Shown piece after piece: positions 30,844 to 46,069 of a stretch of DNA of 64,000 bases. Each line of letters opens with the position of its first letter. The stretch's first letter is position 1. The notes beneath the pieces were generated by a model. That model was not told the DNA's origin. It saw nothing but the letters and a program-made list of their open reading frames with translations, and did no database searches. Origin of the DNA: Herbiconiux ginsengi (GTDB lineage: Bacteria > Actinomycetota > Actinomycetes > Actinomycetales > Microbacteriaceae); contig NZ_FNPZ01000003.1 of NCBI RefSeq assembly GCF_900107435.1, positions 558,001 through 622,000 of the forward strand, given 5' to 3'. A program made the position numbers and the translations under genes.

Positions 30844-32537
30844 GGGGCCTCCTCGGGTGGCGTGGCTCCAGCTGTGGGCGGGGTCGGAGGTGTCGGCGCG
30901 GTCGTCGGGGTCGGTGCGATGGGTGGGGTGGGTGCGGTCGGCTCGCTCGGTGGGGTGGGTGCGGTCGGCTCGCTCGGTGGGGTGGGTGCGGTCGGCTCGC
31001 TCGGTGGGGTCGGTGCAGTCGACGCGCTCGGTGCTGCCGGCGCGGTGGAGGTCGTCGGTGCGACGGGCGAGGCCGATGCGCCGGAGGGGGATGGCGGCAC
31101 GGGCGAGAGATCCGGCCGGCGCGGGATGGACGCGGCCACGACGAAGCCCCCGTCGGGTCGGGGCCCGGCGGAGAATTCGCCGCCGAGCAGCTCGGCGCGC
31201 TCGCGCATGCCGAGCAGGCCTCGGCCGAGGCGCACCGGCTCCGCGTCGGGTGCCGCATCGCGCGCCCGCGACGCCCTGGCGGTCTGGTCCGCACGCGTAG
31301 CCGCGCCCGAGCCCGCGACTGTGCCGTCGTCGATCACCGACACCGTGTAGGCCTCCGCGGTCTCCGCGAGCGTGACCGTGGCGCGGGTCGCGTCGGCGTG
31401 GCGGATGACGTTCGTCAGCGACTCCTGCACGATGCGGTAGAGGGCGAGCTGGACCGCCTTCGGAGGTGGGCCGGTGCGGGGCGCGGCGTCAGCGCCTGGC
31501 GCGATGCCGTTCTCGAGCGTGACCGGGAGCCCTTGTGACACGACGGATGCGACGAGCCCCTCCAGCCGCGAGAGGTCGGGTTCGGGAACGAGGGGCGCGG
31601 CGTCTTCTTCCGCACCCGGGGCATCCTGGCCCGCCCGCAGCACGCCGAGAACCGAGCGCACCTCGTCGAGCGCGCTCTTGCTGGCGTCTTTGATGTTCGC
31701 CAGGGCGCTCGCCGCCAGCTCGGGCTGCGTGTCGATGAGGTGGAGTCCGACGCCGGCCTGCACGTTGATCTGGCTGAGCGAGTGGGCCAGCACGTCGTGG
31801 AGTTCCCGCGCGATGCGCACGCGCTCGGCCTGCACCTCGGTGAGCCGGCGCTCCGCGGCGCGGCGGCGGAGTTCGTCGATGCGGGTGCGGCGCGTGCGGA
31901 TGCCTTCGCCGATGCCCAGCAGCAGCACGAGTCCGAGGGTGACGGCCACCACGGCGGCGGGCTGCCAGTCGACGCCGATGAGGATGCCGGCGCCCACCGT
32001 GAGCACCCAGGCCACGCCGAGCGACCACCAGGCCCAGACCCGCGCGCCGCGCACCACCGCGCTGACGACCGCGAAGGCGAGCGCGATGTAGGGAGGAGCG
32101 AACTCGCCGGCCACCAGGAGCGCATAGGCGCCCGCGGCGGCCGAGACCACGGCGACCACCGGGCCCGGGAAGCGGCGCGCGGCGATCAGCGCGAGTGCGC
32201 CGAGCAGAGCCAGACCGACGCGGGCCGCGAGGTGCCACGGTTCGTCGGCGCCGACGGTGACGAGCCGACGGAGGCGCCACGTGAACAGCGCCGCCGGCAC
32301 CTGCACCACGAACGAGATGATGACCGGGAGCCACAGCCGCGCCCAGCGCGAGAACCGGAAGCGCGGCTCGGCGCCGAGGTCGTCCCAGCCGCTCCACCTC
32401 CCGTGCGGGCCCCATCCGGCACCGTCGCCAGCCGACCACCCGCGCCGGCCCGGCCACTCGTGCGGCGCGCGCTCCTCTTGCCCCGCGCGGGCGCTCTCGT
32501 CTCCGCGTTCGTCGTCAGCGCGGCCCGGGTACGGCAT
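30840..32537 (-). CDS. NarL-type sensor histidine kinase with Pro/Thr-rich tail
   Basis: The start is placed at ATG 32537 (MPYPGRADDERGDESARAGQ). The protein has a charged N-terminal region, about five membrane helices, then a HisKA_3 dimerisation domain (ERVRIARELHDVLAHSLSQI, His in E-L-H-D) and a HATPase domain (LALYRIVQESLTNVIRHADA; RGLLGMRERAELLGGEF). After the ATPase domain runs a tail of about 90 residues with three exact nine-residue units (SEPTAPTPP) and further Pro/Thr repeats, which is unusual for this family. It phosphorylates the coupled response regulator. The signal sensed is unknown; it is probably detected in the membrane part. Confidence 0.9.
   Translation of the reverse strand: MPYPGRADDERGDESARAGQEERAPHEWPGRRGWSAGDGAGWGPHGRWSGWDDLGAEPRFRFSRWARLWLPVIISFVVQVPAALFTWRLRRLVTVGADEPWHLAARVGLALLGALALIAARRFPGPVVAVVSAAAGAYALLVAGEFAPPYIALAFAVVSAVVRGARVWAWWSLGVAWVLTVGAGILIGVDWQPAAVVAVTLGLVLLLGIGEGIRTRRTRIDELRRRAAERRLTEVQAERVRIARELHDVLAHSLSQINVQAGVGLHLIDTQPELAASALANIKDASKSALDEVRSVLGVLRAGQDAPGAEEDAAPLVPEPDLSRLEGLVASVVSQGLPVTLENGIAPGADAAPRTGPPPKAVQLALYRIVQESLTNVIRHADATRATVTLAETAEAYTVSVIDDGTVAGSGAATRADQTARASRARDAAPDAEPVRLGRGLLGMRERAELLGGEFSAGPRPDGGFVVAASIPRRPDLSPVPPSPSGASASPVAPTTSTAPAAPSASTAPTPPSEPTAPTPPSEPTAPTPPSEPTAPTPPIAPTPTTAPTPPTPPTAGATPPEEAP
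30934..31014. repeat. 27-bp tandem repeat, three copies, in kinase tail
   Basis: The unit beginning GCGGTCGGCTCGCTCGGTGG recurs at 30934, 30961 and 30988, a 27-bp period encoding nine residues (SEPTAPTPP) on the minus strand. Copy number may vary between strains by slippage without breaking the frame. Confidence 0.8.
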
Positions 32538-32620
32538 GGCTCGATCGTATCCGTGCCCCTCGCGCGCGGCATCCGCCGTACGTCGCGTCCGCTCTACTCT
32601 CGGGGGAGTAGGCGACCCTC

Positions 32621-32681
32621 GTCGACCCGTCACTTTGTGTCGCTCTGGGCGTCTCAAAGCGACCACAAGTGACGGGTCGAC
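32621..32681. repeat. GAYYCGTC hairpin A, downstream of azoreductase gene
   Basis: GTCGACCCGTCACTT (32621-32635) is the exact reverse complement of 32667-32681, and inner bases (GTCGCT/AGCGAC) lengthen the stem. It ends the azoreductase gene (minus strand). Its tip and inner bases match hairpins B and C near 60.5 and 61.6 kb, so it is a repeat as well as a terminator. Confidence 0.65.
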
Positions 32682-32696: not shown

Positions 32697-33350
32697 TCAG
32701 GCGGTCGGGGCGCCCAGCTCGCGGGCGAGCGCGGCGGCGGCTTCGTGGGCCTCGACGAGCTCGCGGCGGCTGCGATCGATCTGGTCGGACAGGGCCGGGA
32801 CCGTCTCGGCGAGCGTGAGGTTCGTGGCGATGACGCTCACCGTCATGCCGAGTGCCGTGCCGAGGATGAGCCGCAGGGCCGGCACCTCGTGATCCCAGCC
32901 GTCGGTCGGCGATCCGGGGTCGTAGGATGCGCCGCGACTGGTGACGATGACGGCCGGTCGCCCCGCGAGCGGCTGGGTGTCGACGTCGAACGGCGCCGTC
33001 ACGGCCGGAACGTGGATGTTGTCGATCCAGGCCTTGAGGCTCGACGGCAGCGAGTAGTTGTAGAGCGGGGCGCCGATGAGCAGGGCGTCGGCCGCGAGCA
33101 GTTCGGCGATGAGCGAGGCCTGCAGCGCCTCGGCGTCGGCCGGCGGCGTCGACCCGGCAGGGCGCAGCCGCGCGGGCCAGTGCAGTGCCGCGTCGGCGAG
33201 GTGCGGCAGCGGGTCGCGGTGCAGGTCACGATGCGTGACGGTGTTGCCGGGTGCCGCGGCCAGCCAGGCTTCGCTGAAGGTGTGCCCGATCGCCCGCGAG
33301 CGGGAGGTCTCGAGGTCGGCGGAGGAGTCCAGGTGCAGCAGATTCGCCAT
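32697..33350 (-). CDS. FMN-dependent NADH-azoreductase-like flavodoxin-fold protein
   Basis: The 217-residue protein fits the AzoR family: an N-terminal strand NLLHLDSSADLETSRSRAIG (phosphate-binding S-S/S-R-S), ADALLIGAPLYNYSLPSSLK-A-W-I-D (FMN-ribityl region, with P-x-Y-N-Y/F-x-x-P), and PLAGRPAVIVTSRGASYDPG (isoalloxazine contact). Such enzymes reduce quinones and azo compounds using NADH. The ATG is at 33350. It is divergent from the membrane protein gene at 33472 and ends at hairpin A. Confidence 0.85.
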   Translation of the reverse strand: MANLLHLDSSADLETSRSRAIGHTFSEAWLAAAPGNTVTHRDLHRDPLPHLADAALHWPARLRPAGSTPPADAEALQASLIAELLAADALLIGAPLYNYSLPSSLKAWIDNIHVPAVTAPFDVDTQPLAGRPAVIVTSRGASYDPGSPTDGWDHEVPALRLILGTALGMTVSVIATNLTLAETVPALSDQIDRSRRELVEAHEAAAALARELGAPTA

Positions 33351-34444: not shown

Positions 34445-34666
34445 TCAGGCCGACAGACGGCCGAGCTGCTCCTCGACCAAGGGCAGCAGCTCTTGGAAGC
34501 GTGAATCCAAGTGCGGTGTCATGTACGCGGCATCTTCCCGCAGATCTTCGATGAGGGCGCGGAGTCGCGCGAGTTCATCGGTGGAGAGGGTGGAGAGCGA
34601 GATGTCCGAGTAGGGGAGCGCAACCGCTACGGCTGCGACCTCATCGGTCCAGGTGATCCGGCCCAC
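34445..34666 (-). CDS. Small hypothetical protein, 73 aa
   Basis: ATG 34666; MGRITWTDEVAAVAVALPYS followed by DISLSTLSTDELARLRALIE and a helical end FQELLPLVEEQLGRLSA. It is soluble, acidic and two-helix in pattern. It lies between the membrane-protein gene (convergent, 4 bp away) and the five-gene operon on the same strand. No family was recognised; it may be a genuine small gene, as its codon pattern is like its neighbours. Confidence 0.5.
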   Translation of the reverse strand: MGRITWTDEVAAVAVALPYSDISLSTLSTDELARLRALIEDLREDAAYMTPHLDSRFQELLPLVEEQLGRLSA

Positions 34667-34777
34667 GATCCTCCATCTGTGCGTCGAGATGCGATGTCAG
34701 GGGGAGCTTATCGTCGCGCGCAACGGTCGCGGTGTCCCCAGTACGGGAGCACCGCGGCGTGTCGCACCGCACACTTT

Positions 34778-36919
34778 TCAGGCGGCGAGGCGGCGGGCGG
34801 CGTCGATGCCCTGGCGGGTGGCGCGCACGGCGTCGACGCGGGAGGCGTCGAGGGCGCCGCCGACGACCTCGTGGCGGATGCCCCGGGCCGCGAGACCGGC
34901 GCTCAGGGGGTCGTGGGAGACCTGCCCGGCGCAGACGATGACGACGTCCGCGGGAACCAGCGACGACGTGCCGTCGGCGAAGATCACCTCGACGCCCTCC
35001 GGCGTGATGCGGCGGTAGTCGAGGTCGGAGACGAACTGCACGCCCGCCTCCCGCAACTCGCCGAGCGCGACCCAGCGCGATGTGAGACCCATGCCGGCGC
35101 CGAACTTGCCGGTGCGGCGCAGTACCGTCACCGAACTGCCGGGCCGCGGGGCGAACGGTGCCGCTCCGGGGCGCTCGCGCACCCGGGTGCGCTGAGGGAG
35201 CGCATCCGACTCCAAGTACGTGCTCGGCGACGCCAGCTGGAACTGCTCTTCGAAAGCCCGGGCCCGAACGGCCGGGTCGTGCGAGAGCACCAGGAACTTC
35301 GCCGTGTCGATGCCGATGCCGCCACCGCCGATGATCGCGACGCGCCCCTCGGGCACCCCGTCGAGGATCGCCCGCTCGTAGGAGAGCACGTGCGGCAGCG
35401 ACGCCCCGGGGATGTCGACCGTGCGCGGCCGCACTCCGGTCGCCACGACCACACCGGCGTATCCGCCTTCCGCCAGTTCGTCGACGGTCACCGGATGCGA
35501 CACCTCCACCCGCGCGCCGAGCTCGGACAGGCGGGCGGAGTAGTGCGCCACGGTCAGTGCGTAATCCTCTTTCGTGGGGATGCGGGCGGCCAGCGTGAAC
35601 TGCCCACCGAGGTGCGCATCCGCTTCGAAGAGGGTGACCCGGTTGCCCCGGGCGGCGAGGTCTTCGGCCGCGATGAGCCCGGCCGGACCTCCTCCCACCA
35701 CCGCGTAGTGCGCGGGGGCGGCGCTCAGCGTGAGCGGATACCGCGTCTCGGTTGCGGCCCGGGGGTTCACCAGGCACGACACCGGCTGCTTCACGAACGA
35801 GCGGTCGAGGCACGCCTGGTTGCAGCCGATGCAGGAGTTCACGGCGTCGAAGTGGCCGTTGCGCGAGCGGTCGACGATCGCGGCGTCGGCGAGGAACGGC
35901 CGCGCCAGCGCGACGGCCGTGATGGCCCCGCGGGCCAGGATGTCCTCCGCGTCGCGCAGGTCGGTGAGCCGGTTGCTCGCGATGACGGGGACGGCCGTGG
36001 GCGCAGTCGGGTCGGACGGCAGGGCGATCGCCCGCGCCACCGCCTCGGCGTAGCGCAGCCACACCCCGTGCGGCACCGCCGCCTGAACCGTCGGCACCTT
36101 CGACTCGTGCCAGCCGATGCCCACGTTGAGCGCATCCGCTCCCGCCCGCACGAGGTCGCGGGCGAGCGCGTCGGTCTCGTCTTGCGTGCTCGACTCCGGC
36201 ACCAGGTCGGCTCCCGACATCCGCACGATCACGGGCACGTCGAAGCCCACGCCCCGACGCACGGCGCGCAGCACCTCCACCGCGAAACGTCGGCGGCGGC
36301 GGGCGTCACCGCCCCACTCGTCGTCGCGCCGGTTCGTGACGGGCGAGCAGAACTGGTTGATCAGGTAGCCCTCCGAGGCCATGATCTCCACGGCGTCGAA
36401 CCCGAGTTCGACGGCGCGTTCGGCCGCGACGCGGAAGTCGTCGATGGTGCGGAGGATGCCCAGTTCGTCGAGTTCCACCGGAACCTGTGCGCCGGCGCTC
36501 CGCCAGGCGAGGGGGGAGGGGGCGACCGGATGCACGGGCCGGCCGTGCGCATCCGTCACCCCGTCGAGCAGGGCGTAGCGCCCCGCGTGGAAGAGCTGGG
36601 CCGCGATGAACCCGCCGGCCTCGTGCACGGCGGCGGCCGCGGCGGCGAAGCGCGCGTCGCTCGCCGGGTCGCCGAGCACGCTGAAGTCGTCGGCCCCGCA
36701 GCCCTCGGCATTCACCGCGAGTCCGCCCGTGATGATGAGCGTCGCTCCGCCCCGGATGCGTTCGGCGTAGTAGGCCGAGAGCGCCGCGCCCCCGTCGTCG
36801 AGCGTTTCGAGGCCCGTGTGCATGCTGCCCGTGATGACACGGTGCGGCAGCTGCAGCGCGCCCAGTCGCCAGGGCGAGAAGGTGCGCTCGAGCGCGGGGG
36901 TGGCGTCGTCGCCGTGCAT
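34778..36919 (-). CDS. 2,4-dienoyl-CoA reductase-like flavoprotein (FMN, Fe4S4, FAD)
   Basis: The 713-residue protein has the FadH architecture. An FMN TIM barrel (residues about 10-340) contains PHRVITGSMHTGLETLDDGG, AAQLFHAGRYALLDGV and MASEGYLINQFCSPVTNRRD. The Cys cluster is SCIGCNQACLD (C-x2-C-x3-C, and a further Cys in VSCLVNPRA). The FAD/NAD(P) domain has VVGGGPAGLIAAEDLAARGN and AIIGGGGIGIDTAKFL. It would reduce a conjugated dienoyl-CoA or similar intermediate. It is the last gene of the operon running from 42196, 72 bp after the SDR gene. In the cyclohexylcarbonyl-CoA pathway a homologous oxidoreductase is known, so reduction of a cyclohexadiene-carbonyl-CoA is the suggested step here (inferred). 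Confidence 0.85.
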   Translation of the reverse strand: MHGDDATPALERTFSPWRLGALQLPHRVITGSMHTGLETLDDGGAALSAYYAERIRGGATLIITGGLAVNAEGCGADDFSVLGDPASDARFAAAAAAVHEAGGFIAAQLFHAGRYALLDGVTDAHGRPVHPVAPSPLAWRSAGAQVPVELDELGILRTIDDFRVAAERAVELGFDAVEIMASEGYLINQFCSPVTNRRDDEWGGDARRRRRFAVEVLRAVRRGVGFDVPVIVRMSGADLVPESSTQDETDALARDLVRAGADALNVGIGWHESKVPTVQAAVPHGVWLRYAEAVARAIALPSDPTAPTAVPVIASNRLTDLRDAEDILARGAITAVALARPFLADAAIVDRSRNGHFDAVNSCIGCNQACLDRSFVKQPVSCLVNPRAATETRYPLTLSAAPAHYAVVGGGPAGLIAAEDLAARGNRVTLFEADAHLGGQFTLAARIPTKEDYALTVAHYSARLSELGARVEVSHPVTVDELAEGGYAGVVVATGVRPRTVDIPGASLPHVLSYERAILDGVPEGRVAIIGGGGIGIDTAKFLVLSHDPAVRARAFEEQFQLASPSTYLESDALPQRTRVRERPGAAPFAPRPGSSVTVLRRTGKFGAGMGLTSRWVALGELREAGVQFVSDLDYRRITPEGVEVIFADGTSSLVPADVVIVCAGQVSHDPLSAGLAARGIRHEVVGGALDASRVDAVRATRQGIDAARRLAA

Positions 36920-36991
36920 CCGGATGCTCCGATGTGTCGAGGGTTGAGGACGAAGGAAGGTGCGGGTACCCGGAAGGCTACCCGCCCGAGG

Positions 36992-37864
36992 CTATTCCCC
37001 CGAATATTCGGCCGGTGTGACGGCGGCCCCCGATGCCCCCTCGCCCAGAACCGCTTCGCGCAGATCACCCGTCGTGTCGGCCCAGAACGGGGGCGCCACG
37101 ATCGTGAGCCCGCCGTCGACCTGCAGCACCTGACCGGTGATGTACCCGGCCTTCGCCGAGAGCAGGAAGTCGGCGGCATCCGCCATGTCGTCGGCCGTGC
37201 CGGGGCGGCCGAGCGGGATCTTCTCGAGCACCGTCTGCATCGGCGCCATGCCCGGCACCTTGTTGTAGAAGTAGTCGAGCGAGTCGGTGTCGATCAATCC
37301 GCCGTTCACCGCGTTCACGGTGATGCCGCGCGGGCCGAACTCGGTGGCCATGAACTTCACGTAGGCCTCGTTCGCCGCCTTCGCGGCACCCAGCGCCGCG
37401 TAGGTCGGGAAGGCTCGCAGCGATCCATAGCTCGTGATGGTGACGATGCGGCCGCCCCGGTCCATGAGCTCGGCGGCACGGATGGCGCCGAGCACGAAGG
37501 AGCGGGTGTTCATGGCGTAGCTGCGGTCGAGGTGGTGCACCTTCAGCTGCGAGACCGGCTTGAACGCGCTCGCCGCGGCATTCGCGACGAAGGCGTCGAG
37601 CCGGCCGTAACGGTGGCGCACCTCGTCGAAGAGGCGGTCGATGTCGTCGGGGTTCTCGATGTCGGCCTGCACGGTGAAGCCCGATCCGCCGGCCGCCACC
37701 ACGTCGGCGAGCGACTCCTCGGCCAGGTCGGCGTTGACCTTGTAGTTCACGACCACCGCGGCGCCCTGGGCGCCGAGCTTCTGCGCCAGCAGGCGGCCGA
37801 TTCCGCGGGAGGCGCCGGTGATGACGACGACGCGGGGGTTCTGGTTCTCGGTGTTCTCGGTCAT
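36992..37864 (-). CDS. SDR enoyl-reductase (FabL/ChcA-like)
   Basis: The ATG is 37864, 2 bp after the acyl-CoA dehydrogenase stop. The 290-residue protein has a Rossmann motif VVVITGASRGIGRLLAQKLG, then ADIENPDDI (Asp contact), VANAAASAFKP (N-A-A). The active site is TYAALGAAKAANEAYVKFMA, with spacing Y-x6-K rather than the usual Y-x3-K. The Y-x6-K spacing is that of enoyl reductases such as FabL and FabI. ChcA, the 1-cyclohexenylcarbonyl-CoA reductase of Streptomyces collinus, is an SDR enoyl reductase too. Its place in this operon suggests the same job; the exact substrate is inferred. Confidence 0.8.
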   Translation of the reverse strand: MTENTENQNPRVVVITGASRGIGRLLAQKLGAQGAAVVVNYKVNADLAEESLADVVAAGGSGFTVQADIENPDDIDRLFDEVRHRYGRLDAFVANAAASAFKPVSQLKVHHLDRSYAMNTRSFVLGAIRAAELMDRGGRIVTITSYGSLRAFPTYAALGAAKAANEAYVKFMATEFGPRGITVNAVNGGLIDTDSLDYFYNKVPGMAPMQTVLEKIPLGRPGTADDMADAADFLLSAKAGYITGQVLQVDGGLTIVAPPFWADTTGDLREAVLGEGASGAAVTPAEYSGE

Positions 37865-37866
37865 GC

Positions 37867-39057
37867 TCAGGCCTCGGCGTTCTCGGTCGTCGGATGGGTG
37901 GCGGCGTAGTCGAGCAGCACGGCCCGCGCCACGACGGTCTTCTGGATCTCGTTGGTGCCCTCTTCGAAGCGCTGGGCGCGCGCATCCCGGTAGACCCGCT
38001 CGATCGGGTTGCGGGCCCAGTAGCCCTGCCCGCCGTGGATCTGCAGCGCCTTGTCGGTGACCCGGGCGAGCATGTCGACGGCCACGATCTTCGAGGCACT
38101 GGAGAGCGGCGCCGCATCCGGGGCGTCGTTCTCGTAGGCGCGCGCGGCTTCCAGCACGAGGGCGCGGGCGGCCGCGATGTCGGCGTAATTCTCGGCGAGG
38201 TAGGTCTGGATGACGGGCCGCTCGGCGAGTTTCTTGCCGAAGGTCTCGCGCTTCAGCGCGTACTCGATCGCCAGCTCCTGCGCTCGTTCTGCGAGCCCCA
38301 CGGCACTCATCGCGACCGAGACGCGGCTGGGCAGCAGGAAGCCGCCGAGCGCGACCTTCAGACCGTCGCCTTCTTCGCCGAGGCGCGCGCTCACCGGCAC
38401 TGGTGTGTCGGTGAAGTGCAGGATGGCGTGGTCGGTGCCGTGCACGCCCATCGTGTGCGAGTCGTCGATGACCTCGGCGCCCGGGAGGCCCGTGTTCGGC
38501 ACGAGCAGGGCGACGGTGCCGTCTTTGCCGATGGTGCCTTCGAGCCGGGCGAAGAGCAGCCAGTAGTCGCACTTGACGCCGAAGGTGATGAGGTGCTTCT
38601 CGCCGTTGAGGTAGTAGGTGTCACCCTCGCGGCGCACGGTGGAGCGCAGGTCGGCCCCGGTTCCGGCGGTGGCCTCGGTGAGCGTGAACGCCACCAGCAC
38701 CTCGCCCGACACGGCCTTCTTCACGAGCTCGCGCTGCTCCGCGTTAGCGAACGGCTCCATGGCGCGCCAGGTGCCGTTGTTGACGTGCACGAGCATCCGG
38801 ATCGACGCGTGCGAGCGCGACACGATCTCGAGCAGCTCGAGGTAGCGGGGGAACGGGATGCCGCGCCCGCCGAGCTCCACGGGGGCGGCGAGGCTGAGGT
38901 AGCCGCGGTCGCGCAGCTCCTCGTAGAGCTCGCGGGGCACGTCGCCCTCCGCCTCGATGCGCTCGGCCCAGATCTCACCCGGGCCGCGCACCCAGGCCTC
39001 GATCTCGGCCTTCAGCTGCTGGAACTCGTTCTCGTCGATGGCGGTGTCGGTGTTCAC
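37867..39057 (-). CDS. Acyl-CoA dehydrogenase
   Basis: ATG 39057 overlaps the ligase stop. The 396-residue flavoprotein has the ACAD pattern: VAFTLTEATAGTGADLRSTV (FAD-binding), GEKHLITFGVKCDYWLLFAR, RETFGKKLAERPVIQTYLAE (R-x-x-F-G-x-x-L/I), and the C-terminal QIHGGQGYWARNPIERVYRD and EGTNEIQKTVVAR, where the Glu of E-G-T-N-E is at the place of a catalytic base in one class. It oxidises an acyl-CoA with FAD. In a CHC-CoA pathway an acyl-CoA dehydrogenase acts on a ring intermediate. Its operon partners suggest that rather than ordinary beta-oxidation. Confidence 0.88.
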   Translation of the reverse strand: MNTDTAIDENEFQQLKAEIEAWVRGPGEIWAERIEAEGDVPRELYEELRDRGYLSLAAPVELGGRGIPFPRYLELLEIVSRSHASIRMLVHVNNGTWRAMEPFANAEQRELVKKAVSGEVLVAFTLTEATAGTGADLRSTVRREGDTYYLNGEKHLITFGVKCDYWLLFARLEGTIGKDGTVALLVPNTGLPGAEVIDDSHTMGVHGTDHAILHFTDTPVPVSARLGEEGDGLKVALGGFLLPSRVSVAMSAVGLAERAQELAIEYALKRETFGKKLAERPVIQTYLAENYADIAAARALVLEAARAYENDAPDAAPLSSASKIVAVDMLARVTDKALQIHGGQGYWARNPIERVYRDARAQRFEEGTNEIQKTVVARAVLLDYAATHPTTENAEA

Positions 39058-40823
39058 GCTTCTGTGCTCTCCAATGCGGTGCTGTCGTTCTCGGCTGCCA
39101 GCAGCGCGGCGACGCGCTCCCGCAGCAGGTTCTTCTGGATCTTGCCGACCGGGTTACGGGGCAGGGCCTCGATGGCCTCGAGCCGCTCCGGCCAGTAGTA
39201 CTTCGACACGCGCGCGGCGGCCAGGAACTCCTGCATCTCGGTGAAGCCGAGCGGTTCCTGCCCGTCGGCGGTCACCACGAACGCGCAGGCGCGCTCGCCG
39301 AGCCGCGGATCGGGCATCGCGACGATCGCGACATCCTTGACCCGCGGATGCGTGAACAGCAGGTTCTCGATCTCCACCACCGGGATCTTCTCGCCGCCGC
39401 GGTTGATGACGTCTTTGACCCGCCCGGTGACGTGCAGGAATCCGTCGGTGTCGACGATGCCGAGATCGCCGGTCTTGTACCAGCCGTCGGGCGTGAACAC
39501 CTCGGCGGTGAGGTCGGGGCGGTCGAGGTAGCCGAGGAAGAGGGTGGGGGAGAGCAGCTCGTAGTTGCCCTCGCGCCCGGCCGGCAACTCGGTGCCCTCG
39601 TCGTCGACGATACGGATGCGGATGCCGTCGAGCGGCCGCCCGTCGGTTCCCCAGGCGGAGCCCGGCGGGTCGCTCGGGGCCGACAGGGTGCCGAGGCAGG
39701 TCTCCGTGGTGCCGAACGCGCCGCAGACCGCGGTGTCGAGCACGCGGGTGGCGCGCTCGGCGAGCTCGCGGGGCACGGCGGCGCCGGTCGCCACGAAGAT
39801 GCGCAGGCTCGACGGTTGCGTCTCACCGCCCTCGACGGCTTCGACCACGTCCATCAGGAACGGGGTGGCCGCCTGAACGAAGCTGGCGTGCGCGCCGCCG
39901 AAGGCCTGCCGGAGGGCGACCTTCGGATCCCAGATCGGCTGCACGACGGATGCGACACCCAGCTGCCAGCTGAGCAGTAGGCCGTAGAGAAAACCGGTCT
40001 GGTGGGCGAGCGGGGAGGGGATGTAGATGCGGTCGTCGGTGGTGAGGCCGAGGTGAGCGACCTCCATGGCGGTGGCGAGATCGAGTGAGCGGTGCGCGTG
40101 CTGCACGCCCTTCGGCTCGCCCGTGGTGCCCGAGGTGAAGAGCAGTTGAGCGACATCCGTCTCGCTGGGCCGTCGCGCCGCGATCGCGGCCGGCTCGGCG
40201 TGCGCGGCAGCGGTGGCGGCGTCGAAGTCGTGCCATTCCCACGCCTGGAGCGTCGGCTCACTCGTCCCGAAGTGGGCAGAACGACCCCTTTCCACCCCAC
40301 TTTGGGACGAGTCGGCGGGAGCGGCGCCCGCGCGGGGCGCGCCCGAGGGGTCGGTGTCGCCGATCACGAGAACGTGCTCGACGAGCAGGGTGCGACCGCT
40401 CGCGGCGGCCTCGCGCACCACGGCGGCGAGCTCCTCGGCGTGGTGGCGCTTGCGGAACGAGCGCGGCAGCACCAGCACGCGTGCCTTCGCCCGGGCCAGC
40501 ACCATCGCCACCTCGCGCTCGCCGAACACGGGCATGATCGGAGCGACCACGGCGCCGATCTGCAACACGCCGAGTGTCACGGTGACGCACTCGGCCCAGT
40601 TGGGCAGCTGGAAGGCGACGGATTCGCCGGGCTGCACGCCCAGATCGAGCAGAACCGCGGAGACGCGGTCGGCCTCGGCCTTGAGCTCCGCCCAGCTCAG
40701 GGTGCGCGGGCGATCGCCGACCTCGATCACGGCCGGCGCATCCGGTTGCTCGCGGGCGAGCACATCGACGGCGGCGGTGACGCCGGGTGCAAAGGCGAAC
40801 GGAGCCGTTCCGGTGCCGCTCAC
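39054..40823 (-). CDS. Acyl-CoA ligase (AMP-forming)
   Basis: GTG 40823 overlaps the EPSP-synthase-like stop (GTGA). The 589-residue enzyme has the adenylation blocks LLFTSGTTGEPKGVQHAHRS (A3, residues about 235-255), GAFGTTETCLGT (A5), GWYKTGDLG (A7) and GRVKDVINRGGEKI (A8), with Lys in NPVGKIQKNLL (A10). It activates a carboxylic acid as its CoA thioester. An insert of about 35 residues (AAPADSSQSGVERGRSAHFG...) sits between about residues 155 and 190 in a loop; the DNA there is a palindromic repeat. The likely substrate is a shikimate-derived ring acid (inferred). Confidence 0.88.
   Translation of the reverse strand: MSGTGTAPFAFAPGVTAAVDVLAREQPDAPAVIEVGDRPRTLSWAELKAEADRVSAVLLDLGVQPGESVAFQLPNWAECVTVTLGVLQIGAVVAPIMPVFGEREVAMVLARAKARVLVLPRSFRKRHHAEELAAVVREAAASGRTLLVEHVLVIGDTDPSGAPRAGAAPADSSQSGVERGRSAHFGTSEPTLQAWEWHDFDAATAAAHAEPAAIAARRPSETDVAQLLFTSGTTGEPKGVQHAHRSLDLATAMEVAHLGLTTDDRIYIPSPLAHQTGFLYGLLLSWQLGVASVVQPIWDPKVALRQAFGGAHASFVQAATPFLMDVVEAVEGGETQPSSLRIFVATGAAVPRELAERATRVLDTAVCGAFGTTETCLGTLSAPSDPPGSAWGTDGRPLDGIRIRIVDDEGTELPAGREGNYELLSPTLFLGYLDRPDLTAEVFTPDGWYKTGDLGIVDTDGFLHVTGRVKDVINRGGEKIPVVEIENLLFTHPRVKDVAIVAMPDPRLGERACAFVVTADGQEPLGFTEMQEFLAAARVSKYYWPERLEAIEALPRNPVGKIQKNLLRERVAALLAAENDSTALESTEA
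40260..40312. repeat. GAYYCGTC hairpin E inside the acyl-CoA ligase coding region
   Basis: ACTCGTCCCGAAGTGGG (40260-40276) pairs with 40296-40312 over 17 bp with one G/T wobble. It belongs to the hairpin family found at gene ends (48.4, 50.0, 60.5 and 61.6 kb), but here it lies in a coding region, keeps the frame and encodes a loop of low conservation. Confidence 0.65.
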
Positions 40824-42196
40824 GAGGCGAGCGCCTGCTCGGAGCGCGACTTCTCGGCGCCCGCGAGCGAGGTGATCGCCATGTCGAGCCCGACGCTCGT
40901 CATCGCTTGGAGGAACGTGGGATAGGAGATGCGGTAGGCGCGCGGATAGGTGAGCCGCGACTCCCCGTCGGCGCGTGTGGCCGCGACGGAGAGCGACATC
41001 AGCACTCGGTGGTCGTTGAACGACGACATCGGGGCCCCGCGCAGCTCGTCGACGCCGGTGATGAGCAGCTCCGATCCGGTGTCGACGAGGTCGCCGCCGA
41101 GCTTGTTGAGCTGCAGCATCGCGTTCACCCGGTCGGACTCCTTGAGCCGGATGTGCGACACGTTGCGGAGCCTCGAGGTGCCGTGCGCGAAGCTCGCCAG
41201 GGCGGCCAGCACGGGCAGCAGATCGGGAATGGGCTGGCAATCGATGTCGAGCGGGTTCAGCTCGATGCCGTCGTGCCGCACGCGCACGAATCCGGTCTCC
41301 TCGTCGTGCTCCATCGGGAGGCCCATCGCGGCGACGAGGTCGAGGAACTCGGCCTCGGGGTGGTCGGTCTCGGCCGAGGTGGTGGCGGTGAGCCCCCGGA
41401 ACAGCACGTCGGAGGGGTGGATCGCGGCGGCCGCGAGCCCGAACGCGGCCGAGCCGATGTCGGGCGGGATCGTGTAGTCGGTCGCGGTGGCCGTCTGGCC
41501 GGCGGGGATCGTGAAGGTGCGCCAGTCGTCGGAGTGCTCGACCACGAGCCCCCAGTGCCGCATCATCCGCACCGTCAACTCGACGTAGGGCCGTTCGTTG
41601 AGCTCGCCGATCACCTCGACGGTCGTCTCCTTCTCGGCGAAGGGGGCGAGCAGGAGCAACCCCGAGAGCCATTGCGACAGCGTGCCCGGGATGGTGACGT
41701 GACCGCCGGCGGGGGCGCCCGGCTGCACCGTGATGGGCGGGCGGTCGTTGTCGGCGGAGTACTTCACGCCGAGCTGCCCGAGCGAGTCGAGCAGCGCCTT
41801 GATGGGGCGGCGGCGGAAGTACTTCATCCCGGTGAGGGTGATGGGCCGGTCGGCGAGCGACGCGAGACCCGTCATGAAGTACAGGGTGGTGCCGGAGGAG
41901 CCGACGTTCAGCACGCCCTGAGCCGAGATCGAGCCGTGGTCCACCACGTCGTTGCGGGTGTGGTAGCGGCCGCCGTGCACCACGTAGGTGTCGCCGTCGA
42001 TGTCGATACGGGTGCCCAGCGCGCGGAGCACGCCCACCGTCCAGACCACCTGCCGGGTCTCGGAGAGGCCGCGCACGACGCTGCGCCCTGGAGCCAGCGA
42101 CGCCAGCACGAGGGCACGATGCGCATGGTATTTGGATACGGGGATGTTCAGCTCACCGCGGATCGGGGTCTCGGAACCGCTTACGAACAACTGCAC
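40820..42196 (-). CDS. EPSP-synthase-like enzyme (AroA-family), first gene of the operon
   Basis: GTG 42196 has an ideal AGGAGG 8 bases upstream and begins VQLFVSGSETPIRGELNIPV. The 458 residues form the two-domain inverse alpha/beta-barrel of the AroA/MurA family: VSKYHAHRALVLASLAPG, GVLRALGTRIDIDGDT, NVGSSGTTLYFMTGLASL (G-N-S-G-T-T-like), SQWLSGLLLLAPFA, DIGSAAFGLAAAAI and RNVSHIRLKESDRVNAMLQL-N-K-L-G. K-E-S-D-R is an AroA signature. It is unlikely to be housekeeping AroA given the CoA-related operon; a diverged paralogue for ring chemistry on shikimate, as reported for AnsJ-type proteins, fits better. Basis: motifs seen, function inferred. Confidence 0.8.
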   Translation of the reverse strand: MQLFVSGSETPIRGELNIPVSKYHAHRALVLASLAPGRSVVRGLSETRQVVWTVGVLRALGTRIDIDGDTYVVHGGRYHTRNDVVDHGSISAQGVLNVGSSGTTLYFMTGLASLADRPITLTGMKYFRRRPIKALLDSLGQLGVKYSADNDRPPITVQPGAPAGGHVTIPGTLSQWLSGLLLLAPFAEKETTVEVIGELNERPYVELTVRMMRHWGLVVEHSDDWRTFTIPAGQTATATDYTIPPDIGSAAFGLAAAAIHPSDVLFRGLTATTSAETDHPEAEFLDLVAAMGLPMEHDEETGFVRVRHDGIELNPLDIDCQPIPDLLPVLAALASFAHGTSRLRNVSHIRLKESDRVNAMLQLNKLGGDLVDTGSELLITGVDELRGAPMSSFNDHRVLMSLSVAATRADGESRLTYPRAYRISYPTFLQAMTSVGLDMAITSLAGAEKSRSEQALAS

Positions 42197-42312
42197 GCCA
42201 GTGCACCTCCTGAAGATGTGTCGCGGGCTCCGGCAAGTGGAGTCGCACAGGCAACGAAAAGGTATCGGGGTCAATCTTGCCACTTCGGATGGGGTGGCGT
42301 TGCCCGATCCGA

Positions 42313-43134
42313 TCAGAGCGTGGTGCGCGTCAGGGGGCGATCGCTGCCGGCGACGCGGATGTCGACCGACTGCAGCTCGCTGGTCGGGATGCTCGTCGAG
42401 GCCGACAGGTTTCCTGCCCTCTCGCCGCCCGCCGACCAGCTGGCGACCGTGGTCTCGGCGCCCTGCGCATCCGTCACCACCAGGTCGTAGGTGATGGTGT
42501 CGGATCCGGGGTACACGGGGCGGTCGGCGCCGTAGGTGCAGCTCCAGTCGAACCGGGTGCCCCAGGTCTTCTCCGTGATGGCGAGTTCGGCGTCGACGAA
42601 TCCGGGCTCGACCTGCGCCATGGCGCGCGCGATGCCGTCGCCGGGTGTGCCCTCGGTGCCTGCACCGTCGGTCGGGACAGCCGTCGGGCTCGCCGTGTCG
42701 ATCGCGAGCGGCGTTTCGGGCGCGCCGGCCGACCCCAGCCCGAATCCGGCGAACAGGCCGGCGACGGCGAGCACCGCGCCGACCCCGGCCACCAGGCCGA
42801 TCGTGCGGCGCCGCGTGCGGGTGCGCCGGCGCCGCACCGAGCGAGCGAGATGCCGCACGAGGTCGGGCTCGGCGGGAGGGAGGGCAGGCGGCGTGGTCGG
42901 CGTGACCGACTCGTCGAGCAGCGCCACGGCTTCGGCGGGGCTCAGCTTGCCCAGGATGCCGGGGAGGCCCGCGAGTTCGGCGACCGCGGCGGTGCAGGCC
43001 GGGCAGGAGGCCAGGTGCCGTTCGAAGGCGCGGCGCTCCTCAGGTCCGAGCATGCCGAAGACGTAGGCGGCATCCCAATCCCGATACGGATCGTGGGCGC
43101 GGTCGGGGTCGAAGGACGCGTTCGGGTCGGTCAT
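42313..43134 (-). CDS. Anti-sigma factor with zinc-binding domain
   Basis: ATG 43134 overlaps the sigma gene stop (ATGA). The 273-residue protein has an N-terminal zinc-binding anti-sigma motif HLASCPACTAAVAELAG (H-x3-C-x2-C), a linker, an Arg-rich stretch (RRRRTRTRRRTIG) leading to one membrane helix (LVAGVGAVLAVAGLFAGFGL), and an extracytoplasmic domain of about 140 residues with IPTSELQSVDIRVAG. This is the RskA/RslA-like layout. It would sequester the ECF sigma factor until a signal outside the membrane is sensed. Confidence 0.85.
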   Translation of the reverse strand: MTDPNASFDPDRAHDPYRDWDAAYVFGMLGPEERRAFERHLASCPACTAAVAELAGLPGILGKLSPAEAVALLDESVTPTTPPALPPAEPDLVRHLARSVRRRRTRTRRRTIGLVAGVGAVLAVAGLFAGFGLGSAGAPETPLAIDTASPTAVPTDGAGTEGTPGDGIARAMAQVEPGFVDAELAITEKTWGTRFDWSCTYGADRPVYPGSDTITYDLVVTDAQGAETTVASWSAGGERAGNLSASTSIPTSELQSVDIRVAGSDRPLTRTTL

Positions 43135-43637
43135 TCGGTCACCCCCCTTTCCTGCAGGGCGAGGCGGAGCGCTCGCAATGCGTAGTGGATGCGGGAGCGC
43201 ACCGTGCCCACCGGCACGTTCTCCCGCTCGGCGATCTCGGCGGCGGATTGGCCGAGGTAGTAGGAGCTCACGATGGCGGTGCGGTGCTCGAGTGACAGCG
43301 ACAGCAGCGCGTCGGAGAGCAGCCATTTGTCGAGCACCGCATCCGTCTCGTCGTGCACGCCACGATCGGGTACCTCGTCGGTCGGGAACTCGTGCGCATG
43401 GCGGGCGCTGCGGCGATCGTCGATCACCAGGTTGCGGGCCACGGTGAAGAGCCAGGAGCGGGCGGCCTCGTCGCTCTGCTCGAGGATGGCCGGCGACCGC
43501 CAGGCGCGCAGCAGCGACTCCTGCACCACGTCTTGCGCGAAATTCTGGTCGTGGGTGAGGCGCACGACGTACCGGAAGAGCGCCGGCCCGTGGGCGTCGT
43601 GGATCGCCCGCAGCAGCTCGGCTTGATCCTCGGACAT
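43131..43637 (-). CDS. ECF sigma factor (SigK/SigL-like)
   Basis: ATG 43637 with GGAGG just upstream. The 168-residue protein has sigma-2 (LFRYVVRLTHDQNFAQDVVQ, ESLLRAWRS) and sigma-4 (LSLEHRTAIVSSYYLGQSAA, EIAERENVPVGTVRSRIHYA). It has the size and order of the SigK/SigL group of actinobacteria, which are paired with zinc anti-sigma factors as here. A TGAAC-N17-CGTT promoter-like match lies just upstream on its own strand, so autoregulation is likely. Confidence 0.9.
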   Translation of the reverse strand: MSEDQAELLRAIHDAHGPALFRYVVRLTHDQNFAQDVVQESLLRAWRSPAILEQSDEAARSWLFTVARNLVIDDRRSARHAHEFPTDEVPDRGVHDETDAVLDKWLLSDALLSLSLEHRTAIVSSYYLGQSAAEIAERENVPVGTVRSRIHYALRALRLALQERGVTE

Positions 43638-43656
43638 CGATACCTCCAACCACCAC

Positions 43657-43682
43657 AACGGGAGGAGGGGCGGTTGCGTTCA
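43657..43682 (-). promoter_or_regulatory. ECF-type promoter of the sigma/anti-sigma operon
   Basis: On the minus strand, TGAAC (43682-43678) is followed after 17 bases by CGTT (43660-43657), 19 bases before the sigma-factor ATG. The motif matches the SigK/SigL-type -35/-10 consensus (TGAAC ... CGT) and its twin on the other strand, implying autoregulation by the sigma factor. Confidence 0.6.
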
Positions 43683-43683
43683 A

Positions 43684-43718
43684 TTGTGGGCCCGATCCGG
43701 TGCAGATCAGGCCCACAA
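43684..43718. promoter_or_regulatory. 14-bp inverted repeat between divergent ECF promoters
   Basis: TTGTGGGCCCGATC (43684-43697) and GATCAGGCCCACAA (43705-43718) form a 14-bp dyad with one mismatch and a 7-base spacer. It lies between the two TGAAC promoters. It could be an operator for another regulator or a transcript-separating hairpin. Confidence 0.45.
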
Positions 43719-43738
43719 CTGGGATCCGGCTGGGAGCC

Positions 43739-43764
43739 TGAACGATTCCGGGTCATGCACCGTC
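43739..43764 (+). promoter_or_regulatory. ECF-type promoter of the COG4315-like lipoprotein gene
   Basis: TGAAC (43739-43743) is followed after 17 bases by CGTC (43761-43764), 38 bases before the ATG at 43803. It has the same spacing and elements as the sigma-operon promoter on the opposite strand, so this lipoprotein is a probable direct target of the sigma factor. Confidence 0.6.
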
Positions 43765-43802
43765 TTCCCCTTCGACAGGCTGAAACCATCGAAGGAGCCA
43801 TC

Positions 43803-44333
43803 ATGAACACTCGAATCACTCTCGCTGCCGCCGCCGCCGCGGTCGCCCTCCTGGCGCTCGCCGGATGCTCGTCCAGCGGATCGTCGGGCAGCTCGGCCGG
43901 CACGTCACCCGACAGTTCGTCCAGCTCGTCGTCGGGCACCTCCTCGGGCACGGCCGAGGTCAGCACCGCGAATTCGTCGCTCGGTGAGATCGTGGTCGAC
44001 GGCACGGGCATGACCGCGTACTACTTCGACAAGGACACCGCCGGCTCGGGCACGAGCGCGTGCACGGGCGACTGCGCGAAGCTGTGGCCGGCCATCGAAT
44101 CGGCGACCACGACCCCCGTCGTCGACGGCGTCAGCGGAACCGTCGCCACCATCGAGGGCGTCGACGGCGGCAACCAGATCACCATCGACGGACGCCCGAT
44201 CTACACCTTCGCGAACGACAAGAAGCCCGGTGACGTGGCCGGACAGGGTGTCGGAGGAATCTGGTTCGCGGTCTCGCCCTCGGGTGAGGAGCTCACCTCG
44301 GCCACTCCCGCGTCATCCGGAGCCGGCTACTAG
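43803..44333 (+). CDS. COG4315-like secreted lipoprotein
   Basis: ATG 43803 with GAAGGAG upstream. A lipoprotein signal (MNTRITLAAAAAAVALLALA, lipobox L-A-G-C) is followed by a Ser/Gly-rich tether (SSSSGTSSGT...). The domain has two copies of the secreted repeat of COG4315: GEIVVDGTGMTAYYFDKDTA, then CTGDCAKLWPAIE (C-T-x-x-C-x-x-x-W-P), and a second unit NQITIDGRPIYTFANDKKPG then GVGGIWFAVSP. The family binds no known ligand; it appears often as a target of SigK/SigL-type sigma factors. Consistent with that, an ECF promoter lies upstream. Confidence 0.85.
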   Translation: MNTRITLAAAAAAVALLALAGCSSSGSSGSSAGTSPDSSSSSSSGTSSGTAEVSTANSSLGEIVVDGTGMTAYYFDKDTAGSGTSACTGDCAKLWPAIESATTTPVVDGVSGTVATIEGVDGGNQITIDGRPIYTFANDKKPGDVAGQGVGGIWFAVSPSGEELTSATPASSGAGY

Positions 44334-44338
44334 GGCCG

Positions 44339-46069
44339 CTACGGGGTCACGAACACCCCCGCGGCCAGGTCGGCGGGCGCTTGGCTCTTCATCAAGAAGT
44401 GCTGCTTCTTGCCCGTGGCCGTGTAGGGCAGTTCATCGACGAAGGCGTAGCGCCGCGGCCGCTTGAAGCGGGCGAGGGCGACGCTGTCCTGGCAGAAGCG
44501 GTCGAGCTCGGTCGCGGCGGCGGCCGGGTCCTCGAGCGAGCCGGGGCGGCGCTGCACGTAGGCCACGACGACCTCGCCCCATTCCGCATCCGGAACCGCC
44601 GTCACGATGCTGTCGGCGACTCCCGGATGCCCGGCCAGCACCTCCTCGATCTGCACCGGATGCACGTTCTCACCGCCCGAGATGATCATGTCGTCCTTGC
44701 GCCCCACGATCGTCACGATCTCGTCGCCGTTCCAGGTGGCGAGGTCGCCGGGGTACACCCAGCCGTCGCGGAACTTCTTCTCCTGCTCCGCGGCGTTGTG
44801 CATGTAGGCGTAGCCGCTCTTCACCGAGCGCATGATCACTTCGCCCACCGTGCTGCCGTCCTGCGGCACGGTGTCGGTCGGATCGGCCATCCGGTCGGGG
44901 TAGACGTTCACCACCACCACGTCGTCGTCGAGACAGGCGCGACCGGATGCGCCCGCCGCGTCGGGCAGGTCGTCGGGGCGCAGGTAGGTGTTCCAGAACG
45001 CCTCCGTGGTGCCGTAGCCGTTCGCGATGCGCGGCGTGATGGTGCGCTGGTAGCGCAGGGCTGCGGCACGCTCGAGCGGCGCGCCCATGGTGACGATGCC
45101 GGAGAGCGAGGAGAGGTCGCGCGGCCGGGCCTCCTGCTCGTCGGCCAGGCGCTCGAGGTTCGTGGGCGCCCCGATCACGTAGGTGAGGCCGTGCCGCTCC
45201 ACGAGGTCGAGCACGAGCCCGGGCTCGAACTGCGGCAGCGTCACCACCTCGGAGCCCACGTAGAAGGCGGTGTTGGGCCCGGCGCAGTAGTTGCCGCCGC
45301 GATGGAACCAGGGCGACATGTTCATGGTCTTGTCGGTGGGCCCGAGCGGGAAGTGCATGATCGCGTCGTGCGCGGTGAGCACCTCGTTGAGGCTGGTCAG
45401 CGGCACTGCCTTCGGCATGCCGGTGGTGCCGGAGGTGTAGAGGCGGGAGGTCTCATCCCACACCGAACCGCCCTCGGGGGCGCGGAAGGTCGGGGCGCCT
45501 TCGACGAGCAGGTCGGCGAACGGGATCGTGCCCGGCACGAGCTCGATCGCGGCGGCCACGGCGGCCCCGTCGCCGACCGCGACGAGCACCTCGGGAACGA
45601 AATCGGTCAGGCCGAGCGCGGTGCGGACATCCGGGGCCGCCGACGCTTCGTAGACGAAGATCCGCGGCTTCGACTCGCCCAGGATGTGCGCCGTCTCGGC
45701 CGGCGCGAGCCGGAAGTTCATCGGCGACGACACCGCCCGCAGCCCCTGGGATGCGACGTACAAGAAGGCGAACTCGGGCCGGTTCATCAGCTGGTAGCCC
45801 ACGATGTCACCCACCCCGATGCCGTGTTCGGCGAGCCCGGCGACGAGCGCTCCGGTGATCTCGCCGAGCTGCCGATAGGTCCAGGACTCGCCCGTGGTCG
45901 AATCGGTGATCGCGGCGCGGTTCGCGTACCGGTGCGTGTTGCGCTCCACCGCCGAGGCGTAGGTGAAATGCTGCTCGAACACCTGGCGCAACGCCGTGGG
46001 GTCGTAGTCGGTGTTGCCGGCCGATGCGGCCGCGGCGGTGGTGTGTGCGGAGGGGGCGCTGATGCTCAT
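44339..46069 (-). CDS. AMP-dependent acyl-CoA synthetase
   Basis: The 576-residue enzyme has the ANL blocks SRLYTSGTTGMPKAVPLTSL (A3), MNMSPWFHRGGNYC, NGYGTTEAFWNTY (A5), GWVYPGDLATW (A7), GRKDDMIISGGENVHPVQIE (A8) and the Lys in YTATGKKQHFL (A10). It resembles fatty-acyl or propionate-type CoA ligases that act on medium- or long-chain acids. ATG at 46069. It is convergent with the lipoprotein gene (6-bp gap). It stands apart from the operon above, so it is probably a separate fatty-acid activating enzyme. Confidence 0.88.
   Translation of the reverse strand: MSISAPSAHTTAAAASAGNTDYDPTALRQVFEQHFTYASAVERNTHRYANRAAITDSTTGESWTYRQLGEITGALVAGLAEHGIGVGDIVGYQLMNRPEFAFLYVASQGLRAVSSPMNFRLAPAETAHILGESKPRIFVYEASAAPDVRTALGLTDFVPEVLVAVGDGAAVAAAIELVPGTIPFADLLVEGAPTFRAPEGGSVWDETSRLYTSGTTGMPKAVPLTSLNEVLTAHDAIMHFPLGPTDKTMNMSPWFHRGGNYCAGPNTAFYVGSEVVTLPQFEPGLVLDLVERHGLTYVIGAPTNLERLADEQEARPRDLSSLSGIVTMGAPLERAAALRYQRTITPRIANGYGTTEAFWNTYLRPDDLPDAAGASGRACLDDDVVVVNVYPDRMADPTDTVPQDGSTVGEVIMRSVKSGYAYMHNAAEQEKKFRDGWVYPGDLATWNGDEIVTIVGRKDDMIISGGENVHPVQIEEVLAGHPGVADSIVTAVPDAEWGEVVVAYVQRRPGSLEDPAAAATELDRFCQDSVALARFKRPRRYAFVDELPYTATGKKQHFLMKSQAPADLAAGVFVTP

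Follow-up and report, generated by a model that had tools for sequence, protein, structure and literature searches.

A five-gene chromosomal operon of Herbiconiux ginsengi that probably makes cyclohexanecarboxyl-CoA for the priming of omega-cyclohexyl fatty acids

Omega-cyclohexyl fatty acids have long been used as a chemotaxonomic marker, and within the genus Curtobacterium cyclohexyl fatty acids are a mark of C. pusillum. The Streptomyces genes for biosynthesis of cyclohexanecarboxyl-CoA (CHC-CoA), from clusters of the ansatrienin/phoslactomycin type, were reportedly described by Cropp et al. in 2000, a study cited in PMC9795900 and PMC4581413; we take ansJ-M and chcA to be the CHC-CoA genes of those clusters, and to comprise the same five enzyme classes as the locus described here. 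In S. collinus, the pathway further requires ChcB, an enoyl-CoA isomerase. On the lipid side, the nearest known counterparts are C. pusillum and Alicyclobacillus/Sulfobacillus, whose omega-cyclohexyl fatty acids correspond to the predicted product of our locus; a passage of PMC3035248 gives about 51% omega-cyclohexyl C17 for A. acidocaldarius. For the species C. pusillum a cyclohexyl fatty acid is reported in an excerpt of PMC3426160, and the genus description of Herbiconiux, as excerpted from PMC10011130, states that 'Cyclohexyl-C17:0 may be present'.

The window, as we call the whole 64,000-nucleotide stretch of DNA that was analysed from H. ginsengi, a bacterium of soil and plants, carries five neighbouring minus-strand genes at 34778-42196, and their coordinates as read from the sequence, together with Pfam, agree with the enzyme classes named in the original prediction. 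An EPSP synthase (EPSPS)-like protein (42196-40820; GTG start, 458 aa; Pfam EPSP_synthase) comes first, and its gene shares a GTGA overlap with that of an acyl-CoA ligase (40823-39054; 589 aa; AMP-binding). The ligase gene in turn overlaps that of an acyl-CoA dehydrogenase family protein (39057-37867; 396 aa; Acyl-CoA_dh); this second overlap had been given as ATGA but is likewise GTGA, while the other junctions stand as predicted, with a 2-bp gap before a short-chain dehydrogenase/reductase (SDR), the proposed ChcA-like enoyl reductase (37864-36992; 290 aa; adh_short_C2), and a 72-bp gap before a FadH/OYE-type flavoprotein (36919-34778; 713 aa; Oxidored_FMN and Pyr_redox_2). All five classes of the ans/chc-type gene list thus occur together. 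The pathway had been said to look complete, which goes too far in view of the isomerase ChcB: no crotonase (PF00378) was found in the operon, and eight PF00378 matches lie elsewhere in the genome. Homologous sets lie beside modular polyketide synthase (PKS) genes in two Streptomyces genomes, and each of the 18 Streptomyces rows that were read has the EPSPS-like and ligase parts in a single frame. In the window, by contrast, these are separate genes, no PKS adjoins them, and sigma/anti-sigma genes lie upstream.

The arrangement is not due to chance, as the same order and strand recur among relatives. The scan of named genomes took in the best 80 of the 170 relatives that were confirmed, which makes the taxonomic spread given here a minimum; among these best 80, all five genes occur in the same order and on the same strand at 68 loci, and the remaining 12 consist of five cut by contig ends, five without the flavoprotein in place and two without both SDR and flavoprotein. 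None of the 80 loci comes from a record named S. collinus. The five genes also recur in 13 of 15 genus and family stretches, several of which come from the same genomes as the named loci. All five window genes are under purifying selection, with dN/dS values of 0.06-0.15 against the nearest relative. The surroundings had been described as a core-like region, and this is borne out only in part: ten of 16 Herbiconiux genomes hold all five genes, two hold the first three only, and in three, at 98-99% completeness, the set is missing; in the last, a fragmented assembly (G007), the set is visible only through a 95% identical dehydrogenase. The two partial genomes, H. oxytropis and the metagenome-assembled genome (MAG) nzgw90, keep the EPSPS-like, ligase and dehydrogenase genes intact, and this three-gene version is under purifying selection as well (dN/dS between the two of 0.19, 0.23 and 0.035, respectively); no close SDR or flavoprotein was found in either assembly. 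Further afield, five Micrococcaceae genomes have a flavoprotein homologue on another contig, and nine of 14 Streptomyces stretches hold all five genes. The full set is present in C. pusillum ATCC 19096 and at two further C. pusillum loci, at loci of C. luteum and C. flaccumfaciens, and in H. daphne (L035/L096).

The first gene could be taken for a spare AroA serving chorismate synthesis, and automatic annotation may well name it aroA: NCBI's AroA model, TIGR01356, accepts this first enzyme of the set (316.9 bits, cut-off 287.25). We regard the chance of this as close to negligible. A separate AroA in the same genome scores 365.5 bits on TIGR01356, so that the EPSPS-like copy is not the sole one, and a second, AroA-like match is present in each of the 16 genomes with a close relative. 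In the tree, the 96 operon rows form a clade apart from the 14 AroA rows, and the grouping with housekeeping AroA that would have told against the original prediction was not observed. A first tree took in the ligase columns of fused proteins as well as a MurA row on a long branch; the second used the EPSPS part only and left out MurA together with nine rows of genomes seen twice, and the partial G163 copy and G065 (identical with L128) were not added. One row read in a wrong frame (L033) was left out of both trees and of the residue counts. A plasmid search with the EPSPS-like protein returned 82 records, all below 60% identity; the 20 matches listed, at 28-33% identity and mostly annotated aroA, are uninformative on the operon clade.

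The residues in question also differ from AroA. Three AroA serines (S23, S169 and S197, E. coli numbering), which we take to be those that bind shikimate-3-phosphate, are serine in 14 of 14 AroA rows; in the operon rows the first position is Tyr (95/95 rows covering it), the second Leu and the third Glu (96/96 each), and the two latter replacements in every row further argue against a spare AroA. Seven residues of the PEP site are retained. In an alignment to solved EPSPS the SSQ loop is shorter by one residue, and the position of K411 is occupied by I423 of the window protein with R422 adjacent, so K411 was not counted as kept. Judging by these alignments, the predicted PEP site persists and the shikimate-phosphate side has been remodelled; the protein thus resembles AroA as a member of the same family with seven PEP-site residues in common, and differs from it by the remodelled side, the separate clade and its coexistence with true AroA. 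The EPSPS-like protein and the ligase are fused in one frame in 75 of the 96 rows, which suggests that the two act together, and they are separate genes in all 12 Herbiconiux genomes read.

One possible, if rather doubtful, extension of these observations is that the EPSPS-like enzyme binds PEP and acts on unphosphorylated shikimate or shikimoyl-CoA, with an enolpyruvyl group on a ring hydroxyl serving as the leaving group, and that, as a second variant, three-gene genomes of the H. oxytropis type form some other ring acyl-CoA that retains unsaturation. We know of no described phosphate-free deoxygenation by way of an enolpyruvyl leaving group.

The signatures of the other enzymes are likewise conserved. 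The EGTNE motif of the dehydrogenase, which presumably holds the catalytic Glu, is present at all 93 loci with a match; the Y-x6-K enoyl-reductase signature of the SDR, which among solved structures is closest to the enoyl-ACP reductase 3oic, at 86 of 86; and the Fe-S-type cysteine motif of the flavoprotein at 80 of 81. The best NCBIfam model for the ligase is that of cyclohexanecarboxylate-CoA ligase (TIGR03208), and the models matched by the dehydrogenase include some for cyclohexanecarboxyl-CoA dehydrogenase. These matches could speak for an operon that breaks down cyclohexanecarboxylate or shikimate, akin to the bad-ali degradation system (PMC9795900), with which the locus has the ligase and acyl-CoA dehydrogenase classes in common. 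Yet the scores fall far under the cut-offs, both for the AliA- and AliB-type equivalogs (425.9 vs 792.3 bits for TIGR03208, and 116.8 vs 575.35) and for a further one of these models (170.4 vs 650). The missing crotonase again sets the operon apart from bad-ali, the EPSPS-like gene and the two reductases speak for a reductive pathway, and in other genomes the set has condensing enzymes as neighbours; we therefore think a catabolic role very unlikely. That CHC-CoA serves to start polyketides, its role in the antibiotic clusters, appears highly improbable for H. ginsengi, even though no more than about 130 bases separate the set from modular PKS ORFs in two of 14 Streptomyces stretches (G433 with all five genes, G426 with four and no flavoprotein in the stretch), PKS-type ketosynthase (KS) motifs occur somewhere in seven of the 14, and a DTACSS-type KS lies near the set at two of the best 80 named loci. 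A further KS match, SAACSS at L113, was rejected as spurious. The original prediction had noted the absence of a polyketide synthase near the operon, and the genome extends this: its single PF02801 match is of the FabF type and sits beside FabH, which leaves no sign of a type I/II PKS, though it does not bear on type III. Among the best 80 of 170, none of the Microbacteriaceae loci showed a DTACSS-type KS motif in the flanking sequence covered, which was at most 9 kb. That first scan with DTACSS-type motifs missed FabF-type condensing enzymes (KAS). A FabF-type KAS was located next to the set at 14 of these best 80 named loci by comparing conserved flanks, by tblastn with four KAS queries and, for five of these loci, by Pfam, and one adjoins it in three of the 14 Streptomyces stretches; no condensing enzyme lies beside the window operon itself.

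With a single FabF-type match in the genome and no hint of a type I/II PKS, priming of fatty acids is the likeliest use, and the FabF-type neighbours and the presence of all five genes in C. pusillum lend this reading further support. We thus consider it probable that this chromosomal operon leads to CHC-CoA, which primes FabH/FabF synthesis of omega-cyclohexyl fatty acids, where we infer the reactions, their order and the product. The ligase would convert shikimate or an early derivative to its CoA thioester. Removal of the ring hydroxyls would fall to the EPSPS-like protein together with the acyl-CoA dehydrogenase-type flavoprotein, and the ring double bonds that result would be reduced by the SDR and the FadH-type flavoprotein. 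Saturated CHC-CoA would then prime ordinary FabH/FabF synthesis, giving omega-cyclohexyl fatty acids such as 11-cyclohexylundecanoate. The tie between set and CHC-CoA is one of association, through PKS neighbours, FabF-type KAS neighbours and C. pusillum. Against it stand the lack of ChcB in the operon, the three Herbiconiux genomes without the set, and the incomplete sets of the five Micrococcaceae, the two Herbiconiux and five of the 14 Streptomyces stretches. Carriage of the set may not in every case mean that the acids are made, since loci of C. luteum and C. flaccumfaciens hold the full set, whereas within that genus the acids are a mark of C. pusillum. H. daphne, too, has the full set and, in the excerpt of PMC10011130, no cyclohexyl acid among its listed major fatty acids. 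This last point, and the three intact, constrained genes that H. oxytropis and nzgw90 keep with no close SDR or flavoprotein, would fit an operon that makes another shikimate-derived acyl-CoA, for instance a cyclohexenyl or aromatic one, with CHC-CoA formed in some lineages only. We find this unlikely for the window, which has both reductases, each strongly constrained (dN/dS 0.06 and 0.08).

Related genes are known from antibiotic pathways. The new elements are the details of fusion and splitting, the active-site pattern and the three-gene version in Herbiconiux. If CHC-CoA is indeed the product, the set could serve as a small five-gene module for its production in laboratory hosts, and it predicts candidate makers of omega-cyclohexyl lipids, including Frondihabitans, Subtercola, Luteimicrobium and Eremiobacterota MAGs.

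With regard to regulation, a scan of 34500-44400 found no sigma-70 promoter and three terminator-like sites, where 2.0 were expected. Directly upstream of the set, on the minus strand, lie a gene for a zf-HC2 anti-sigma-like protein (42313-43158) and, upstream of it on the same strand, one for an ECF-like sigma factor that has no Sigma70 regions other than 2 and 4 (43131-43658), both of which are possible regulators. The zf-HC2 gene is found upstream of the set in all 11 Herbiconiux stretches and in none of four from other genera.

The operon lies on the minus strand at 34778-42196 and consists of genes for an EPSP-synthase-like (EPSPS-like) protein (42196-40820), an acyl-CoA ligase (40823-39054), an acyl-CoA dehydrogenase (39057-37867), an SDR (37864-36992) and a FadH/OYE-type flavoprotein (36919-34778), all read from the sequence and each of the expected Pfam/NCBIfam class. 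The GTGA overlap of the EPSPS-like and ligase genes and the intergenic gaps of 2 and 72 bp are as originally predicted, whereas the ATGA overlap claimed for the ligase/dehydrogenase junction reads GTGA; both overlaps of the operon are thus GTGA. A named-genome scan gave 170 confirmed relatives, and among the best 80 of these, 68 loci have all five genes in the same order and on the same strand. The five-gene operon itself holds in coordinates, families and conservation. Of the other loci, 5/80 are cut by contig ends, 5/80 (Micrococcaceae) have no flavoprotein in place, and 2/80 (Herbiconiux) lack SDR and flavoprotein; each of the five Micrococcaceae genomes carries a flavoprotein homologue, 42-44% identical, on another contig. 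The Y-x6-K motif of the SDR is present in 86/86 loci with an SDR match, the EGTNE motif of the dehydrogenase in 93/93 and the flavoprotein cysteine motif in 80/81; the EGTNE glutamate is taken as the catalytic residue and the cysteines as an Fe-S-type motif. The top NCBIfam model for the SDR is the enoyl-ACP reductase FabL (223.5 bits, under the cut-off of 328), and among solved structures the nearest to it is the enoyl-ACP reductase 3oic.

Gene content, fusion, residue pattern and neighbours are direct observations; the reading of the set as an operon for cyclohexanecarboxyl-CoA (CHC-CoA), a predicted product, is well supported. The ligase would convert shikimate to a CoA thioester, the EPSPS-like and dehydrogenase-type proteins would take off ring hydroxyls, the SDR and flavoprotein would reduce double bonds, and CHC-CoA would then prime FabH. 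In-vitro CHC-CoA biosynthesis has reportedly been described with a shikimoyl-CoA synthetase and a FAD-dependent dehydratase. The Streptomyces collinus pathway also requires the isomerase ChcB; eight crotonase-family matches are found outside the operon in the H. ginsengi genome.

The original prediction had asked whether the EPSPS-like protein groups with housekeeping AroA or is the sole copy, and it does neither: it belongs to a separate clade, and AroA is encoded elsewhere in the genome, on contig C3. The genome has three PF00275 matches, namely the C3 gene, a true AroA (TIGR01356 score 365.5), the EPSPS-like gene and, shortly beyond the edge of the window, a gene scoring above the cut-off of the MurA model (405.3 vs 392.7). 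A close relative of the EPSPS-like protein (at least 58%) occurs in 16 of 61 genomes (60 relatives and H. ginsengi itself), and all 16 have a second match, 30-34% identical. In the tree, 96 operon homologues and 14 AroA proteins lie on opposite sides of one branch; a tree on the EPSPS part alone splits 99 from 14 with 100% SH-aLRT support. Since the EPSPS-like protein also passes TIGR01356 (316.9 vs 287.25), automatic annotation may name its gene aroA.

Active-site positions were taken from an alignment to solved EPSPS and counted over the 96 operon and 14 AroA proteins, using E. coli numbering and the PEP-site and shikimate-phosphate-side roles that we take these residues to have. The PEP-site residues K22, G96, R124, D313, E341, R344 and R386 are retained in all operon proteins covering them (95/95 or 96/96); at the K411 position there is an Ile next to a conserved Arg, and we therefore do not count K411 as retained. 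On the shikimate-phosphate side the residues have changed: S23 is Tyr (95/95), R100 is Tyr (96/96), the first Ser of SSQ is Leu (96/96, in a loop one residue shorter in the alignment) and S197 is Glu (96/96), while all 14 AroA proteins retain S, R, S and S. This pattern suggests a substrate without a 3-phosphate, with putative use of PEP.

In the common form of the set, the EPSPS-like protein and ligase are fused in a single ORF of 962-1105 codons (75/96, the two shortest being cut by contig ends), and the split in the window is the main departure from it. The 21 split cases comprise 19 from Herbiconiux, representing 12 genomes of which 7 were seen twice, plus one each from Frondihabitans sucicola and a MAG; in the latter two the search returned the ligase part in two pieces, perhaps because it is broken or misread. 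The EPSPS-like genes of the 12 Herbiconiux genomes read all terminate in GTGA (10) or ATGA (2), giving a possible start codon that overlaps the stop. The 12 Herbiconiux proteins form one clade (98% SH-aLRT) and other lineages have fused proteins; a single fission in Herbiconiux is the simplest reading. This lineage-specific fission and the clear active-site signature allow the role of this enzyme to be tested.

Herbiconiux also provides natural variants. H. oxytropis (genome G003; loci L041/L052) and the MAG nzgw90 (G008; L042/L054), with assemblies 98% and 92% complete, carry only the EPSPS-like, ligase and dehydrogenase genes; the best matches in these assemblies to the SDR and flavoprotein reach at most 113 and 111 bits, against self-scores of 627 and 1561 bits. 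The three genes left are free of stops and give dN/dS values of 0.19, 0.23 and 0.035 between the two genomes, so they are still under purifying selection. Predominant acids of the H. oxytropis type strain are anteiso-C15:0, anteiso-C17:0 and iso-C16:0, according to the available part of the description (PMC10011130). The set is absent from three Herbiconiux genomes (G001, G009, G013).

Eremiobacterota MAGs also carry the set (loci L104, L107, L110, L112, L116-L118 and L121). The eight Eremiobacterota EPSPS-like proteins form one clade amid actinobacterial ones in the tree, which suggests that the set may have moved between phyla. With four queries, a FabF-type condensing enzyme was found adjoining the set in 14 of the best 80 loci (confirmed by Pfam in five), from Streptosporangiaceae, Streptomyces, Actinomycetota MAGs and Eremiobacterota, and in none of the Microbacteriaceae loci. 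In Streptomyces, 12/392 genomes have the EPSPS-like gene at E 1e-60 or better, and we analysed 14 stretches (up to 40 kb), one per copy: 13 copies came from this search, and the other was the second S. sulphureus copy. Nine contain all five genes, two (G257, G426) lack the flavoprotein, two (G435b, G066b) have the EPSPS-ligase part only, and one (G163) has a partial EPSPS part only. Two-module type I PKS proteins, recognised by Pfam, are encoded no more than ~130 bases from the set in G433 and G426 (ORFs of 3362 and 3354 codons); a PKS-type KS motif occurs in 7/14 stretches, and a FabF-type KAS sharing 69-85% identity with the S. iconiensis enzyme adjoins the set in 3/14. Related sets are thus found in polyketide contexts and, it appears, in fatty-acid contexts too. 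Two genomes, S. sulphureus (L109/G066) and G435, each hold two EPSPS-ligase fusion copies: one belongs to a complete set accompanied by a FabF-type KAS, and the other has none of the remaining genes in its 40-kb stretch and a PKS-type KS motif ~11 kb off.

PF02801 matches the H. ginsengi genome (99.85% complete) only once, adjoining a FabH, and hence this search gives no sign of a type I/II PKS; fatty acid priming remains as the likeliest use of the set in this genome. Cyclohexyl acids are typical of Curtobacterium pusillum, and the full five-gene set occurs in its strain ATCC 19096 and at two further loci of the species; the presence of the set in other members of the genus counts against a match between set and product. 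In the passages available, a review names C. pusillum as having cyclohexyl fatty acid (PMC3426160), Alicyclobacillus acidocaldarius is given ~51% omega-cyclohexyl C17 (PMC3035248, which cites a 1972 title by De Rosa tying omega-cyclohexyl acids to shikimate), and a Sulfobacillus genome paper says that omega-alicyclic fatty acid genes were identified (PMC4378227). A Herbiconiux description, as far as its accessible text goes, states that cyclohexyl-C17:0 may be present (PMC10011130). Counting against the product, H. daphne (L096) has the full five-gene set, and the same text lists anteiso-C15:0, C17:1, anteiso-C17:0 and C18:1 as its major acids, with 25% C17:1w9c and no cyclohexyl acid reported there (PMC10011130). 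H. daphne may not have used the set in the conditions of that study, or else a peak of cyclohexyl-C17:0 may have been mis-assigned.

Directly upstream of the operon, also on the minus strand, lie a zf-HC2 anti-sigma-like gene (42313-43158) and a sigma factor with regions 2 and 4 (43131-43658). The anti-sigma region is kept in 11/11 fetched Herbiconiux stretches and in 0/4 from other genera, and the operon may therefore be under stress control in Herbiconiux. Further upstream is a second, AMP-binding acyl-CoA ligase (44339-46069, minus strand), with a close homologue in 10/11 fetched Herbiconiux stretches; in G001, G009 and G013 only distant homologues were found, ~31% identical at the best E-value. 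Downstream of the operon is a histidine kinase gene (HisKA_3, HATPase_c; 30840-32666, minus strand), and the adjoining ORF at 32697-33350 on the same strand could encode its response regulator.
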